A DNA stretch of 64,000 nt, taken from NCBI RefSeq assembly GCF_001661595.2, contig NZ_LYPF02000028.1:1-64000 (forward strand). The letters run 5' to 3'. Each line of letters opens with the position of its first letter. Position 1 is the stretch's first letter. A program made the position numbers and the translations under genes. This DNA comes from Crocinitomix algicola (lineage in GTDB: Bacteria; Bacteroidota; Bacteroidia; Flavobacteriales_D; Crocinitomicaceae). Below the pieces are notes generated by a model. That model did not search any database. It saw only the letters and a list, made by a program, of their open reading frames with translations, and was not told the DNA's origin. This document shows positions 2-12,353 of this stretch, one piece after another.

Positions 2-1393
2 CCTCTTGGAAATCCTGATTCAGATGGTGATGGAATTGTTGATTCAAAAGACTTAGATTCTGATAATGATGGTATTTATGACATTGTCGAAGATGGTGGA
101 ATTGATGAAAACAACGATGGTATTGTAGACGATTGGACTGATTCTGATGGTGATGGCATTCCTGATTACGCAGACGCAGATGCTACTGGAGGACCCGATG
201 TTGATGGTGATGGAATAGATGATACATTACAAATAGGTGAAGATTCTGACGGGGATGGTATTTCGGATGATTTTGACGAAGACGTTGATGGAAACGGTTG
301 GGACGACGATGACAAAACGGATGGTCAAGAAGATACCGACAATGATGGTGTTACAGATCGAGTAGATTTAGACTCTGACAATGACGGAACACCAGATATA
401 ATCGAAGATGGAGGATCTGATTCAAATGGTGATGGAAAGGTGGATGATTTCACTGACGAGAATGGTGATGGTGCTGATGATACTAATATGACAGATGGGC
501 TGGACGATATTGATGGAGATGGAATACCGGATCATGAAGATGTAGATGCTGACAACGACGGTATAACTGACGCAGAAGAAAATGGCGTTCCTGATGAGAA
601 CGGTGATGGTAGAGTGGATGATTTCACCGATGAAGATGGTGATGGTTGGGATGATAACAATCAGACAACTGAACAAACAGATACTGATGATGATGGTACA
701 CCTGATGATAATGACTTGGACAGCGATAACGACGGAATCGACGATATTATAGAAGGAGGCGGTACAGATATCAACGGTGATGGTGTAATTGATGATTTCA
801 ACGATGAGAATGGAGATGGTCTAGATGATAACGATGGTGTTCAACCGCCTGATTCTGACGGAGACGGAATTGACGACTATCAAGATATTGATTCGGATAA
901 CGATGAAATTCTGGATGAAGTTGAAAATGATCCTAATGGAGATGGTAATGGACCAGACGATTCGGATAATGACGGAATTCCGGATTATCAAGACAATGAT
1001 GATGACAATGACGGAATTCTTTCCATTGATGAAGGAGATGAAGATGGAGATGGCGTTTTAGATGATTGTGATGAAGATGGAACACCTGATTATTTAGATA
1101 TTGATGCCTGTTCCGTATTTATTCCAACAGGTTTCTCTCCAAATAACGATGGTTTAAATGACTTTTTTGTCATCAACGGAGTTTCTCCAAATCAAACTGT
1201 TAGCATAACAATTTTTAATAGATGGGGAAGTAAAGTTTATGAATCAAGTGCATATGAAAATGATTGGGATGGTACAAATCAATTTGGAATGACTGCTGGT
1301 TCAAGAGAACTGCCAGCGGGAACATATTTCTATGTGATTGATTTAGGCGATGGAAGTGAAATCATCAAAAATTATTTACAGTTAGAACGATAA
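2..1393 (+). CDS. Asp-rich TSP3-repeat surface protein, T9SS type B sorting domain (5' partial)
   Basis: The frame is open from the first bases of the window, so this is the C-terminal part (about 463 codons) of a larger exported protein. Residues 1 to about 370 are thrombospondin type 3-like calcium-binding repeats (DxDxDGxxD), extremely rich in Asp, Asn and Gly. The last 90 or so residues form a gliding-motility-associated C-terminal domain (CHU_C), with the motifs PTGFSPNNDGLND, FNRWG and LPAGTYFYVIDLGDG. In Bacteroidota this domain directs export through the T9SS and attachment at the cell surface (known of the family). The PorP/SprF and OmpA genes that follow are the usual partners of such cargo. 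The upstream end and total size cannot be seen. Confidence 0.9.
   Translation, partial: PLGNPDSDGDGIVDSKDLDSDNDGIYDIVEDGGIDENNDGIVDDWTDSDGDGIPDYADADATGGPDVDGDGIDDTLQIGEDSDGDGISDDFDEDVDGNGWDDDDKTDGQEDTDNDGVTDRVDLDSDNDGTPDIIEDGGSDSNGDGKVDDFTDENGDGADDTNMTDGLDDIDGDGIPDHEDVDADNDGITDAEENGVPDENGDGRVDDFTDEDGDGWDDNNQTTEQTDTDDDGTPDDNDLDSDNDGIDDIIEGGGTDINGDGVIDDFNDENGDGLDDNDGVQPPDSDGDGIDDYQDIDSDNDEILDEVENDPNGDGNGPDDSDNDGIPDYQDNDDDNDGILSIDEGDEDGDGVLDDCDEDGTPDYLDIDACSVFIPTGFSPNNDGLNDFFVINGVSPNQTVSITIFNRWGSKVYESSAYENDWDGTNQFGMTAGSRELPAGTYFYVIDLGDGSEIIKNYLQLER
371..1060 (+). repeat. In-frame tandem repeats encoding TSP3 Ca-binding units
   Basis: Codons for the DSDNDG-type core recur at 371, 545, 719 and 890. 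The spacing is 174, 174 and 171 bases, so the unit is about 58 codons. Each unit carries NGDGxVDDFxDENGDGxDD followed by DxDxDGxPD. An earlier core lies at 56. The repetition is coding and in frame, and is typical of expandable adhesin stalks. Confidence 0.75.
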
Positions 1394-9088: not shown

Positions 9089-10097
9089 GAAAAAAGATAT
9101 TTCCTACTCGGTTTTAGAACTAGCTATTATCGGAGAAAATAAATCATTAGCAAGTACCTTAGCTCATACTGTCGAACTTGCGAAATCAGCTGAAAAAGCT
9201 GGCTACAAACGCTTTTGGTTGGCAGAACATCACAATTCCAAAGCAATTGGAAGTAGCGCTACATCGATATTAATTGGAAAAGTGGCAGACCATACGAAAA
9301 CCATTCGTGTAGGCTCCGGTGGAATAATGCTCCCCAATCATTCTCCATTGATAATTGCTGAGCAATTTGGAACATTGGGCACACTTTACCCCAATAGAAT
9401 CGATTTAGGTTTAGGCAGAGCACCTGGAACAGATCAGGAAACTGCTCGCGCAATAAAATCCGATTTCTATCAAGCCGCAATGTCTTTCCCTCAAGAAGTA
9501 GAAAAAATCGAACACTACTTTGCTCCGCAAATGGACAATGTGAAAGTTCGGGCCAATGTTGCAGAGGGCGTGAATGTACCGATTTATATTCTTGGTTCGA
9601 GCTTGGATAGCGCACATTTGGCCGCTAAAAAAGGTTTACCCTACGCTTTTGCAAGTCATTTTGCGACACAACATTTAATGAATGCCATGGAGACCTATCA
9701 CCGAGAATTTCAACCATCGAAAATCTTATCAGCTCCTTATACTTTAGCGGGTGTAAATATCATTGTTGCCGATACCGATGAAGAAGCCGAAAGAATTTCT
9801 ACTACTTTATACAAAATGATTATCAGCCTCTTAACAGGAAAGAGAGGTTTTATGGAACCCGCAGCAGAAATGACTCCTCAACTCCGGGAGATGAAGAATC
9901 ACCCTTCGGTTCAAAACATGCTTAAATATTCATTTATCGGAAGTAAAACTACCGTTAAACGAGAAATTAAAGAGTTTCTAAATACAACACAGGTTAATGA
10001 ACTTATTGCCGTTACAAACACCTATGATTACAACGACCGTATAAAATCATATAATTATTTTGCGGAAATCATGAAAGAAATAAACGAGGAGGATTGA
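9087..10097 (+). CDS. LLM-class flavin-dependent oxidoreductase
   Basis: 336 residues of the bacterial luciferase-like superfamily, nearest in pattern to the YhbW-type group. Seen: the N-terminal strand SVLELAIIGENKS, the loop FWLAEHHNS, VGSGGIMLPNHSPL, and RIDLGLGRAPGTDQ. These are typical flavin- and phosphate-binding positions. The substrate is unknown; members use reduced FMN and oxygen on diverse compounds. It probably responds to the ArsR regulator upstream. Its last 276 bases are present again at 10741-11016. The gene abuts the convergent gene that follows without any gap. Confidence 0.9.
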   Translation: MKKDISYSVLELAIIGENKSLASTLAHTVELAKSAEKAGYKRFWLAEHHNSKAIGSSATSILIGKVADHTKTIRVGSGGIMLPNHSPLIIAEQFGTLGTLYPNRIDLGLGRAPGTDQETARAIKSDFYQAAMSFPQEVEKIEHYFAPQMDNVKVRANVAEGVNVPIYILGSSLDSAHLAAKKGLPYAFASHFATQHLMNAMETYHREFQPSKILSAPYTLAGVNIIVADTDEEAERISTTLYKMIISLLTGKRGFMEPAAEMTPQLREMKNHPSVQNMLKYSFIGSKTTVKREIKEFLNTTQVNELIAVTNTYDYNDRIKSYNYFAEIMKEINEED

Positions 10098-10577
10098 TTA
10101 TGCACTTAACATTGAAATAAGCCGATTGATATGGGGATAGTAAATGCTACCCCACATTGGTTTTTTTTCAAATTTAAATGTCTGAGATGAACCTGCGTCA
10201 TGAACAATCGGAATTGAAAATCCAGCCCATTTTTTTCCAGATTTTAACTTTAAACAATATGTTTTAGCTTCTTCTGTAACGTTAGTGGATATTAATACAA
10301 GTATAACTGCTAATCCAGATTGCAAGCCTCTAGGCCAACCAGTGTAGTGCTTTTCAGCATATTTAAATGAACGCTTTAAATAAGACTCGAGCATCGGAAC
10401 ATTTACCTCCTGATTGTCCAAGTCCACCGCTACAATAAACGTATTTAGCTGAGTAGCCATCCAAGACCATTTAAATTTCTTTTCATATCCAACAATAGCA
10501 TTATAATCATCTAATAAAACCTCAGCATGATAAATTCCTGCTTCTTTGAGATTCTTTTTGATTTTATCTATCTCCAT
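10098..10577 (-). CDS. Hypothetical protein inserted between duplicated flanks
   Basis: 159 residues, no signal peptide, one hydrophobic stretch (about 86-99, LQSGLAVILVLIST). Aromatic and basic residues are frequent. I do not recognise the family. Its stop codon directly follows the monooxygenase stop on the other strand. Upstream lies a 3' fragment of the 80-residue membrane-protein gene. It therefore occupies the slot that a different gene (11075-11749) occupies in the second copy of the duplication. Confidence 0.65.
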   Translation of the reverse strand: MEIDKIKKNLKEAGIYHAEVLLDDYNAIVGYEKKFKWSWMATQLNTFIVAVDLDNQEVNVPMLESYLKRSFKYAEKHYTGWPRGLQSGLAVILVLISTNVTEEAKTYCLKLKSGKKWAGFSIPIVHDAGSSQTFKFEKKPMWGSIYYPHINRLISMLSA

Positions 10578-10598
10578 AGTACTAAATTTTTTATTTTG

Positions 10599-10741
10599 TT
10601 AATGACGCCGCTCCATTTCAGTTTGTAACACTTTTGTTTGACTCTGGTCCCGCGTTAGTTTAAATATTAGAATTAAAGGAATAAGCGTTACCAAACCCCA
10701 TGTATTAGCAATTACACTGTAAATAATTATACCAATCATAA
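10599..10741 (-). pseudogene. 3' fragment of the 80-aa membrane-protein gene
   Basis: Bases 10599-10741 repeat 11824-11966 with about two mismatches by eye. This keeps the last 47 or so codons and the stop, but no start. The copy ends abruptly at 10741, where monooxygenase-derived sequence begins. It is a remnant of a tandem duplication. Confidence 0.88.
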
Positions 10742-11016
10742 TCAGTCTCTTAACGGGAAAGAGAGGTTTTATGGAACCCGCAGCAGAAATGACTCCTGAA
10801 CTCCGAGAGATGATGAATCACCCTTCGGTTCAAAACATGCTTAAATATTCATTTATCGGAAGTAAAGCTACCGTTAAACGGGAAATTAAAGAGTTTCTAT
10901 ATACAACACAGGTTAATGAACTTATTGCCGTTACAAACACCTCTGATTACAACGACCGTATAAAATCATATAATTATTTTGCGGAAATCATGAAAGAAAT
11001 AAACGAGGAGGATTGA
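10741..11016 (+). pseudogene. 3' fragment of the monooxygenase gene
   Basis: Bases 10741-11016 repeat 9822-10097 with about nine mismatches and no gaps by eye. The fragment holds the last 91 codons. A Met at 10771 could open an 81-residue reading frame, but it would lack the flavin-binding N-terminal two-thirds. Five of the differences change amino acids (Q/E, K/M, T/A, N/Y, Y/S), which fits relaxed selection. Confidence 0.88.
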
Positions 11017-11074
11017 TTAGTTTCTACTCTTTGTTAAAGAATAAAGGAGAGTACAATCCCCCTTTTGTAATTCT

Positions 11075-11749
11075 TTATTTTTTTTCAATTTTCTTTTCAA
11101 GCTCTTCCACTTCCTGTTTTTGCTGATTTAGCATTTCGCGCATTTTTTTAACTTTCTCTTCCGCCATTTTTATATTGTCATTCTTTACCTTCTCGTCTTG
11201 TGTCGAAAGTTCACCATTTTCTTTTTGCCTTTTCAGTTTTTCTTTTGCTTGTTTTATTTTTTCTTCAGAATCCTTGATCTTTTTTTCTTGCTCTTTAATT
11301 TGAGCTTCTGCTTCACGTTTTTTTTCAGCAGCTTGTTCTTTTGCCTGTGCTGCCCTATCATGACCGAATTCCTTCCCACTTAAATCACCCTTATTCTTTC
11401 CATATGCGTTACCTTTACCGTTATTCGATTTGTTATTTTTTACTTTTTTACTTGAATTATTATCTTTTTCTAATTCAACCTCCTCCTCTTTATCTTTCTT
11501 GATTACTTTCACTCCGGTTTCAGTACTTTCTTTTTTTTCATTTTTACTATTCTTGATAACCCTCCCTTTATCCTCATCTTTTTCAGCACCATCTTCTTTG
11601 TCATTCTTAATGACTCTCCCCTTCTTTGATGTTGGATTTTCCTGTTTTTGATTCTGTTCAACTTTTCCTTTTATCTTGCCTTTTTCCTGTGCATTCGAAA
11701 TAGTTGCAACAAGTAAAAAAGGAAGAATTAAAAACAATATACTTTTCAT
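11075..11749 (-). CDS. Secreted Lys/Glu-rich coiled-coil protein
   Basis: 224 residues with a signal peptide ending SNAQ. The first half is low-complexity and charged, with a repeated GRVIKN motif (twice, plus GVKVIKK). A central segment KGNAYGKNKGDLSGKEFG is the only ordered-looking part. The second half (about 130-224) is a long coiled coil rich in Lys, Glu and Gln. No family is assigned. It could be a periplasmic structural or cation-binding protein. It occupies the same slot, in the second duplication copy, as the 159-residue gene does in the first. Confidence 0.7.
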   Translation of the reverse strand: MKSILFLILPFLLVATISNAQEKGKIKGKVEQNQKQENPTSKKGRVIKNDKEDGAEKDEDKGRVIKNSKNEKKESTETGVKVIKKDKEEEVELEKDNNSSKKVKNNKSNNGKGNAYGKNKGDLSGKEFGHDRAAQAKEQAAEKKREAEAQIKEQEKKIKDSEEKIKQAKEKLKRQKENGELSTQDEKVKNDNIKMAEEKVKKMREMLNQQKQEVEELEKKIEKK

Positions 11750-11823
11750 CTTGTGTCTTTTTTTGTTTGTTAAATTGTATTAGAAAAATACTCCTTTTTT
11801 TTTAATAAAGCTAATTTATTCGA

Positions 11824-12066
11824 TTAACGACGCCGCTCCATTTCAGCTTGTAACACTTTTGTTTGACTCTGGTCCCGCGTTAGTTTAAATATTAGAATTA
11901 AAGGAATAAGCGTTACCAAACCCCATGTATTAGCAATTACACTGTAAATAATTATACCAATCATAAATCCTACAATAAGCGCTTGCAAAACATCCACTTT
12001 TTTAGATCGTTTCAATTCTAATTCAAGTTCACTGTCAGTCAGCTCTTTTAATTCTTGTTCTTTCAT
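11824..12066 (-). CDS. Small two-helix membrane protein
   Basis: 80 residues. An acidic N-terminal helix (KEQELKELTDSELELELKRS), two transmembrane segments (about 29-46 and 48-61) and a basic C-terminus ending MERRR. Function unknown. Its start overlaps the stop of the YcxB-like C-terminal gene by 4 bases (ATGA). The three genes esterase, YcxB-like and this one are probably one operon. The 3' end of this gene is duplicated at 10599-10741. Confidence 0.68.
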   Translation of the reverse strand: MKEQELKELTDSELELELKRSKKVDVLQALIVGFMIGIIIYSVIANTWGLVTLIPLILIFKLTRDQSQTKVLQAEMERRR

Positions 12067-12353
12067 TCAAATCTATCTTTTTTGTTAGTTAAGATCTTAT
12101 CTAATTCGATTAGCTCATCAACAACTTTCTCCTTCGGGATTATTATTGCGCTTAAATTGGTGTTGTATAAAAAATAATAACCCTCTGTTTCTACAATCTT
12201 TTCAAGACCTTCCCAGCTCATTTTAGATTCACTCGCCTCAAGTCTTTGAACAATACCATCCTCACTAAACTCAATTAAATGATTTCCCAGGAGATTTTTA
12301 TTTTTTCCTTCTTCCATCATTTTTTTTACCTTTTTCAACGTTAGTTTCATCAT
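12063..12353 (-). CDS. YcxB-like protein, C-terminal part (frameshifted)
   Basis: 96 residues as read from the first ATG. It carries the YcxB-like C-terminal domain: HLIEFSEDGIVQRLEASES, KMSWEGLEKIVETEGYYFLY, IIIPKE. Normal YcxB proteins have two transmembrane helices before this domain; here those are encoded just upstream in another frame (12358-12591). Dropping one base from the T7 run (minus strand of 12365-12371) joins the two as LFYPKRMMKLTLKKV without a stop. The most likely reading is one gene with a frameshift mutation or sequencing error. Confidence 0.7.
   Translation of the reverse strand: MMKLTLKKVKKMMEEGKNKNLLGNHLIEFSEDGIVQRLEASESKMSWEGLEKIVETEGYYFLYNTNLSAIIIPKEKVVDELIELDKILTNKKDRFE

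Follow-up and report, generated by a model that had tools for sequence, protein, structure and literature searches.

A stretch of 64,000 nucleotides (nt) from Crocinitomix algicola (contig NZ_LYPF02000028.1, positions 1 to 64,000; here the window) carries, directly behind the gene for a luciferase-like monooxygenase (mono), a tandem duplication whose two copies hold different genes, X and Y. We consider it probable that this is a heterozygous tandem duplication, or merodiploid, of one exchangeable slot, in which an allele carrying X has been joined to the resident allele carrying Y. Viewed together with related genomes, the locus gives the appearance of a gene exchange frozen in place at a site used repeatedly. 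Table 1 gives the features of the locus.

Table 1. Features of the duplicated slot behind mono and of its flanks (positions in the window; aa, amino acids; ORF, open reading frame)
Feature	Position	Strand	Basis
mono, luciferase-like monooxygenase, full length, 336 aa	9087..10097	+	PF00296 E=2.8e-35; TIGR03558 MsnO8 family E=4.5e-118
Repeat A, mono codons 246 to stop	9822..10097	+	267/276 identical to 10741-11016
Gene X, 159 aa, stop abuts mono stop	10098..10577	-	rare family, ORF list
Repeat D, truncated 3' part of the 80-aa gene, 5' part absent	10599..10741	-	141/143 identical to 11824-11966
Novel joint D/A'	10741..10741	.	1 nt shared
Repeat A', orphan mono 3' end; 81-aa ORF at 10771-11016	10741..11016	+	alignment, ORF list
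Gene Y, 224 aa, Lys/Glu-rich; N-terminus signal-peptide-like by eye	11075..11749	-	ORF list
Repeat D', 3' part of the intact 80-aa gene	11824..11966	-	alignment
Intact 80-aa gene, 4-nt overlap with upstream YcxB-like gene	11824..12066	-	ORF list
YcxB-like gene, flank upstream of the 80-aa gene	12063..12353	-	PF14317 E=2.3e-12

By scoring the whole window for direct repeats of at least 40 nt lying within 6 kb of each other we obtained three families, and two of these make up the locus: 286 nt at 9815-10100 and 10734-11019 (96%), and 152 nt at 10590-10741 and 11815-11966 (97%). The mono end A differs from its copy A' at 9 of 276 bases (3.3%), and D, from the end of an 80-aa gene, differs from D' at 2 of 143 (1.4%). 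The copies are arranged head to tail, with spacings of 919 nt for A and 1225 nt for D and a novel joint at 10741; since this base is common to both repeats, they share 1 nt at the joint. Towards the cargo, homology stops at the stop codons of both flanking genes (10095-10097 in mono and 11824-11826 in the 80-aa gene), and the stop codon of X (10098-10100) directly follows that of mono. The spacers holding X and Y give short matches at chance level only (best E 0.17), so that the cargo is unrelated and the order reads mono/A, X, D, then, across the joint, A', Y, D'. A preliminary description of this DNA had reported both repeat pairs, about one shared base at the joint and a different gene in each copy, and all of this holds at base level. 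It had also looked to the identity of the repeat pairs to date the event; both rates would suit a single age (Fisher P=0.35). When 9700-12100 was used as a query against the 3.72-Mb genome in 44 contigs, no place beyond this one was found (40 of 91 candidates scored).

The order and the joint can be read directly from the bases, and the donor, the route and the occurrence of a single event we infer as follows. Conspecific strains would have carried either an A-X-D or an A-Y-D allele, and DNA of the X allele would have entered a cell with the Y allele, transformation being our guess at the route. The incoming DNA would have found its homologous partner at the mono end; its opposite end, within the 80-aa gene, would have been joined to mono codon 246 without homology. 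X would thereby be gained and Y kept, leaving behind the orphan mono end A' and the truncated 80-aa gene D. The same product could arise from a 919-bp A-X-D circle through one crossover in A, or from unequal joining of sister chromosomes. Recombination between A and A' would bring back the Y allele, and between D and D' the X allele. By eye, no integrase was seen among the ORFs listed at these loci. DprA was found in all five genomes tested and also in 11 of 14 control genomes, and is thus no proof of competence.

We searched for mono in 59 near genomes and then in 200 drawn from the family, in a sample of one genome per species, and fetched the flanks, together with a set of 80 named loci, the best 80 of at least 597. 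Copies of the mono 3' end were sought downstream in 74 loci, two of which end within mono or at its end, and L046, which is the same contig as L154, was counted once. In the sister genus (g2), seven of nine genomes with mono carry such a copy (G009, G031, G454, G465, G475, G490 and G497, the other two being G511 and G524). The copies are 66-99 nt long, 88-94% identical and 0.4-1.6 kb from the mono stop; in G031, where mono is frameshifted, the copy is 34 nt in the downstream scan and a full 90 nt in self-comparison. The slot gene is convergent to mono in all seven. Its type varies: a YhcG/DUF1016 nuclease in G009 (Pfam) and, by near-identical DNA, in G465 and G454; KilA-N in G475 (Pfam), with remnants in G031 and G490; and a split RhuM gene in G497 (Pfam). 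Three genes fall into PADLOC candidate families, namely YhcG of G009 (PDC-S02), KilA-N of G475 (PDC-S22) and a RhuM gene upstream of mono in G031 (PDC-S05), PDC presumably standing for 'phage defence candidate'. In G511, which represents the empty form, HipA genes follow mono at a distance of 22 nt; in G031 they lie behind the copy and one further gene. In G454 the slot holds a full YhcG together with a 128-aa piece resembling, by eye, a second gene of that type (L156 2152-2538), so that the window may not be alone in having stacked cargo.

A third genus (g10) contributes G519, with a 237-nt copy, 89% identical, that runs into the contig end. Measured back from the last base of the stop codon, the copy starts at 281 nt in G519 and at 276 nt in the window, so the two starts lie within 5 nt of each other. 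No copy was found in the g10 genomes G478, G486 and G458 (at least 2.4 kb downstream); in the remaining genomes of the genus the contig or mono is cut short or the flank was not fetched. No copied mono end was seen in 37 named loci other than L046.

The g2 slots also carry a record of movement between species. The YhcG slot of G465 is 99.9% identical to that of G009 and 99.7% to that of G454 (1386 aligned nt), whereas mono is only 89.3% and 89.6% identical in the same pairs; the G454 slot has about 218 nt more than that of G465. In bins of 50 nt the identity leaps at the mono stop, where it reaches 100%; in the comparisons with G465 it is down to 88-94% within the copy and reaches background beyond it. 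G465 and G475 have the same region behind the copy and different cargo, and G009 and G465 have the same cargo and different regions behind the copy. This swapped sharing, taken with the binned identities, is the signature of an exchange with ends at the mono copies. The KilA-N slots say less, with 94.7% and 94.4% in two comparisons, against 90.7% and 89.5% in mono. The preliminary description had suggested that the slot might be a site of gene exchange. That part is supported by the sister-genus slots with other cargo and by the transfer between species, and the sequences of these relatives support it more strongly than the window alone could.

As a control for copied gene ends in general, we took 1149 ORFs of at least 120 aa from 119 loci and scored those whose final 150 nt include a stretch of at least 50 nt that recurs, at an identity of at least 80%, no more than 6 kb away. 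Copied 3' ends occur in 8 of 105 mono ORFs compared to 1 of 1044 others (L027, 55 nt), and copied 5' ends, under the same criterion, in two genes (L079 and L119). With the ATG rule, 15 of the 119 loci lacked a mono ORF; the broken ORF of G031 keeps that genome out of the count. Since the g2 cases are probably one ancestral duplication, there are three events at mono (the window, g2 and G519), or two without the window.

Two wider proposals can be built on these observations, and both are tentative. The first, which we hold as a possibility at somewhat less than even confidence, is that the mono 3' end is a standing exchange port in several Bacteroidota genera, where single-gene cassettes would enter, leave and replace each other between species. 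The second, put forward with the same reserve, is that the port cassettes (the candidate phage-defence genes YhcG, KilA-N and RhuM, and X or Y here) might carry or acquire a copy of the mono end as a homology arm and be moved by host recombination alone. For the g2 slots themselves, movement of the cargo by host homologous recombination through such mono-end arms is already part of the reading that we consider probable.

Of the two cargo genes of the window, X belongs to a rare family. It has no match in Pfam, NCBIfam or PADLOC and Y none in PADLOC, and neither has a recombinase match in Pfam or NCBIfam. Homologues of X occur in three of eight same-genus relatives (54, 39 and 37% identity) and in none of 50 further relatives; among 395 genomes drawn from the class, this one included, two more have a match, which is clear in one and at E=9e-4 in the other. 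The three genus relatives carry X at one conserved place beside a gene of 147 aa, with genes that by eye resemble ParA/ParB lying two or three genes away. The corresponding parAB-like place in this genome (G000:C11, L214 7002-7015) has neither X nor its 314-aa neighbour, with 12 bp between the flanking genes, so that in this lineage X sits in the mono slot instead. Joint movement of X with the 314-aa gene was considered and set aside, as relatives of that gene here lie on another contig at 39-41% identity and are uninformative. Relatives of Y are found in 10 of 58 other genomes (E 4.7e-21 to 5.9e-4), and G013 is the sole one of the 58 with both a full mono and a relative of Y, on different contigs. 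The 80-aa gene has homologues in 6 of these 58.

We also asked what X might be. As phage cargo it had no match in phages, and as viral cargo no match was confirmed in viral contigs; as plasmid cargo it gave a single match, to a Flammeovirga plasmid, at 53.9% identity over 58% of X. A structure model of X built from the single sequence is of moderate quality (predicted local distance difference test score, pLDDT, 66.7). With this model Foldseek returned nothing at E<=0.001, and VIA-align ranked the YqgP N-terminal domain first (Z 7.4), then EndoMS (6.7) and, lower, other nucleases, all within the tool's stated background. EndoMS and the lower-ranked nucleases are, we assume, of the PD-(D/E)XK type. 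On the modelled fold, a structural likeness of X to nucleases is suggestive at most.

The preliminary description had offered two histories for the locus, and we lean to that of joined alleles. It requires fewer exact events, the three genus relatives with X have it at another place, and the intact mono end does not look better preserved than the orphan copy. The other history, which we regard as unlikely but the most serious competitor, starts from an ancestor with mono, X, Y and the 80-aa gene, which underwent a tandem duplication with a 1-nt joint, after which copy one lost Y and copy two lost X. From the order A, X, Y, D it requires one deletion per copy and it fits the joint; the divergence of the two repeat pairs is compatible with it, and a pattern rich in nonsynonymous changes fits drift of functionless copies. 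It demands, however, three events, and each of the two deletions must have stopped exactly at a gene end. In relatives, X and Y were not found together, the X of the three genus relatives lying near parAB-like genes, and the full mono and Y relative of G013 are on separate contigs. In addition, by eye and against eight outgroups, derived-looking amino-acid states are found at codons 265, 270 and 288 of the intact A and at codons 299 and 313 of the orphan A', so that a decay confined to the orphan is unsupported. The nine sites that differ between A and A' could also be read as a crossover mosaic, derived-looking first in copy one (six sites) and then in copy two (three). We did not count this reading, since several of the sites are ambiguous and all nine changes would be needed in one parental lineage.

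Less likely again, in our estimate, is that a slot with one cargo was duplicated and the cargo of one copy was then replaced by homologous recombination through A' and D'. The sister genus does show replacement of cargo between homologous flanks, and such a replacement would account for both flanks being kept in both copies. It takes two events rather than one, however, and its intermediate, the same cargo twice, is absent from the 119 loci, all of which are of other species.

Site-specific integrative elements typically bring in an end that restores the gene they enter. Integration by an unseen recombinase, with its core at mono codon 246 and an element restoring the gene end, is suggested by the near-coincident breakpoints of the window and G519 in two genera, which we estimate to have a chance of about 1% for one pair in a 1-kb gene. 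We nevertheless think it very improbable, as inspection by eye of the ORF lists of the loci revealed nothing recombinase-like (selected ORFs were scanned against Pfam), and between A and A' lie only X and the D fragment, with Y behind and no integrase. Moreover, the g2 copies begin near codon 303 and not 246, and the other joint lies inside a different gene with a shared core of only 1 nt. Finally, an assembly artefact that concatenated two strain alleles, for which the draft state in 44 contigs might speak, is scarcely credible, because a 1-nt overlap should not be buildable by overlap or k-mer assembly without crossing reads and because the genome is 99.94% complete with a contamination of 0.01.

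Several results weigh against joined alleles or against a recurrent port, and we gather them here. An allele with a single cargo was found in no compared genome, in a sample that had no second strain of this species and may omit very near records. Seven of the 11 differences in A and D change an amino acid, which is high for two functional alleles (P=0.012, 0.14 and 0.67 at a ratio of nonsynonymous to synonymous rates, dN/dS, of 0.1, 0.2 and 0.5), and the excess could be drift after duplication; the substitution data do not separate allele divergence from later drift. The only other full mono of the genus, in G007, has 68% protein identity and is followed by other genes, and no copied mono end was seen in the genera g6, g7, g11, g13 and g19 (17 genomes looked at). 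As to movement between species, G009 and G454 share 94.1% in mono and 99.9% in the slot and are still 96-100% identical past the copy, with no tract end there, and the KilA-N slot of G475 and G490 shows no excess identity (85.9%, against 88.8% in mono). Counted by events, the enrichment of copied ends at mono has a one-sided Fisher P=0.003 with three mono events and 0.023 with two, the window left out.

Earlier accounts describe systems that resemble this locus. Kirchberger 2017 (PMC5361080) proposes homology-facilitated illegitimate recombination for the immunity arrays of the type VI secretion system (T6SS) in Vibrio cholerae. The window, with one homologous side (276 nt, in mono) and one joint with 1 nt, resembles the arrangement described there, namely one homologous anchor and one illegitimate joint, with old cargo kept and new cargo added; in one of its cases the old cargo lies behind a shifted gene 3' end, as at the window. 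The Vibrio arrays are toxin-immunity modules at a secretion cluster, whereas the window has a monooxygenase 3' end, cargo without assigned function and a truncated second flank, D. Johnston 2013 (PMC3784515) describes merodiploids made by natural transformation in Streptococcus pneumoniae, where sister chromatids are joined unequally and the tandem duplication can carry two alleles, much as we propose here; those duplications span about 100-900 kb and arise through chromosomal repeats, in contrast to 0.9 kb and a 1-nt joint in the window. With one side homologous and the other joined on 1 nt, the product here is of the kind expected from homology-facilitated illegitimate recombination or from unequal joining in transformation.

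Touzain 2010 (PMC2884548) describes dimorphic microdiversity loci of E. coli, slots with two forms for which homology-assisted illegitimate recombination is offered as cause. Here too two unrelated segments belong to one chromosomal slot, but the segments of the dimorphic loci are in different strains, and in the window both stand in tandem in one chromosome. Insertion of restriction-modification genes with long target duplication (Nobusato 2000, as reported in PMC1643837 and PMC3874152) is comparable to the g2 slots: in both, the genes stand between target copies about 100 bp long. The g2 copies (66-99 nt) agree with target repeats of about 100 bp and the window has a 276-nt repeat around X and D; an empty site, as expected of such an insertion, was found for g2 only (G511). 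In contrast to the insertions so reported, one target gene end here recurs across genera and cargo is exchanged between copies. The unusual feature is that the 3' end of one gene is copied beside changing cargo in three genera. A literature search on a monooxygenase-end hotspot found nothing, priority having been searched for that topic and for DUF1016/RhuM/KilA-N.

Some further observations were made at and around these loci. At many places in g2, and in some genomes of g10, an AT-rich motif 33-47 nt long stands directly upstream of unrelated gene types (YhcG/DUF1016-, RhuM- and KilA-N-like, mostly named by eye), for instance at L028 7168-7214, L149 4312-4358, L026 8850-8894 and 10348-10393, and in L204, L205, L209, L211 and L212, with weaker matches beside other genes in L194, L195 and L196. 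It may be a shared promoter, an operator or the end of a mobile cassette; a 161-nt query found no match at E<=0.01 in the genome of the window. Just after mono in G007 is a 159-nt intergenic direct repeat (L027 6286-6444 and 7999-8153, 91%) that encloses a pair of small genes resembling, by eye, a toxin-antitoxin system and another gene; being intergenic and unrelated to the mono coding sequence, it was rejected as a copy of the mono end. In G017 (L161 5862-6206) mono breaks off after about 113 codons and continues into unrelated DNA. At the left edge of the window (88-835) are four copies of an 85-nt repeat rich in Asp, Asn and Gly codons, three of them 64-75% identical to the reference copy, which we take to be of the type found in calcium-binding-type repeat proteins.

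Small differences in gene content between strains often lie in slots between conserved genes where no mobile element is visible, and here the joint of such a change is readable base by base. In the sister genus the slot has been refilled with candidate anti-phage genes, one of which is near-identical in different species, and the exchanged stretch stops at the copied target ends. If the mono-end copies do act as homology arms, they would offer a testable, recombinase-free route for moving single genes, and if the mono 3' end is a standing port, the window would show that port caught with two cassettes at once.

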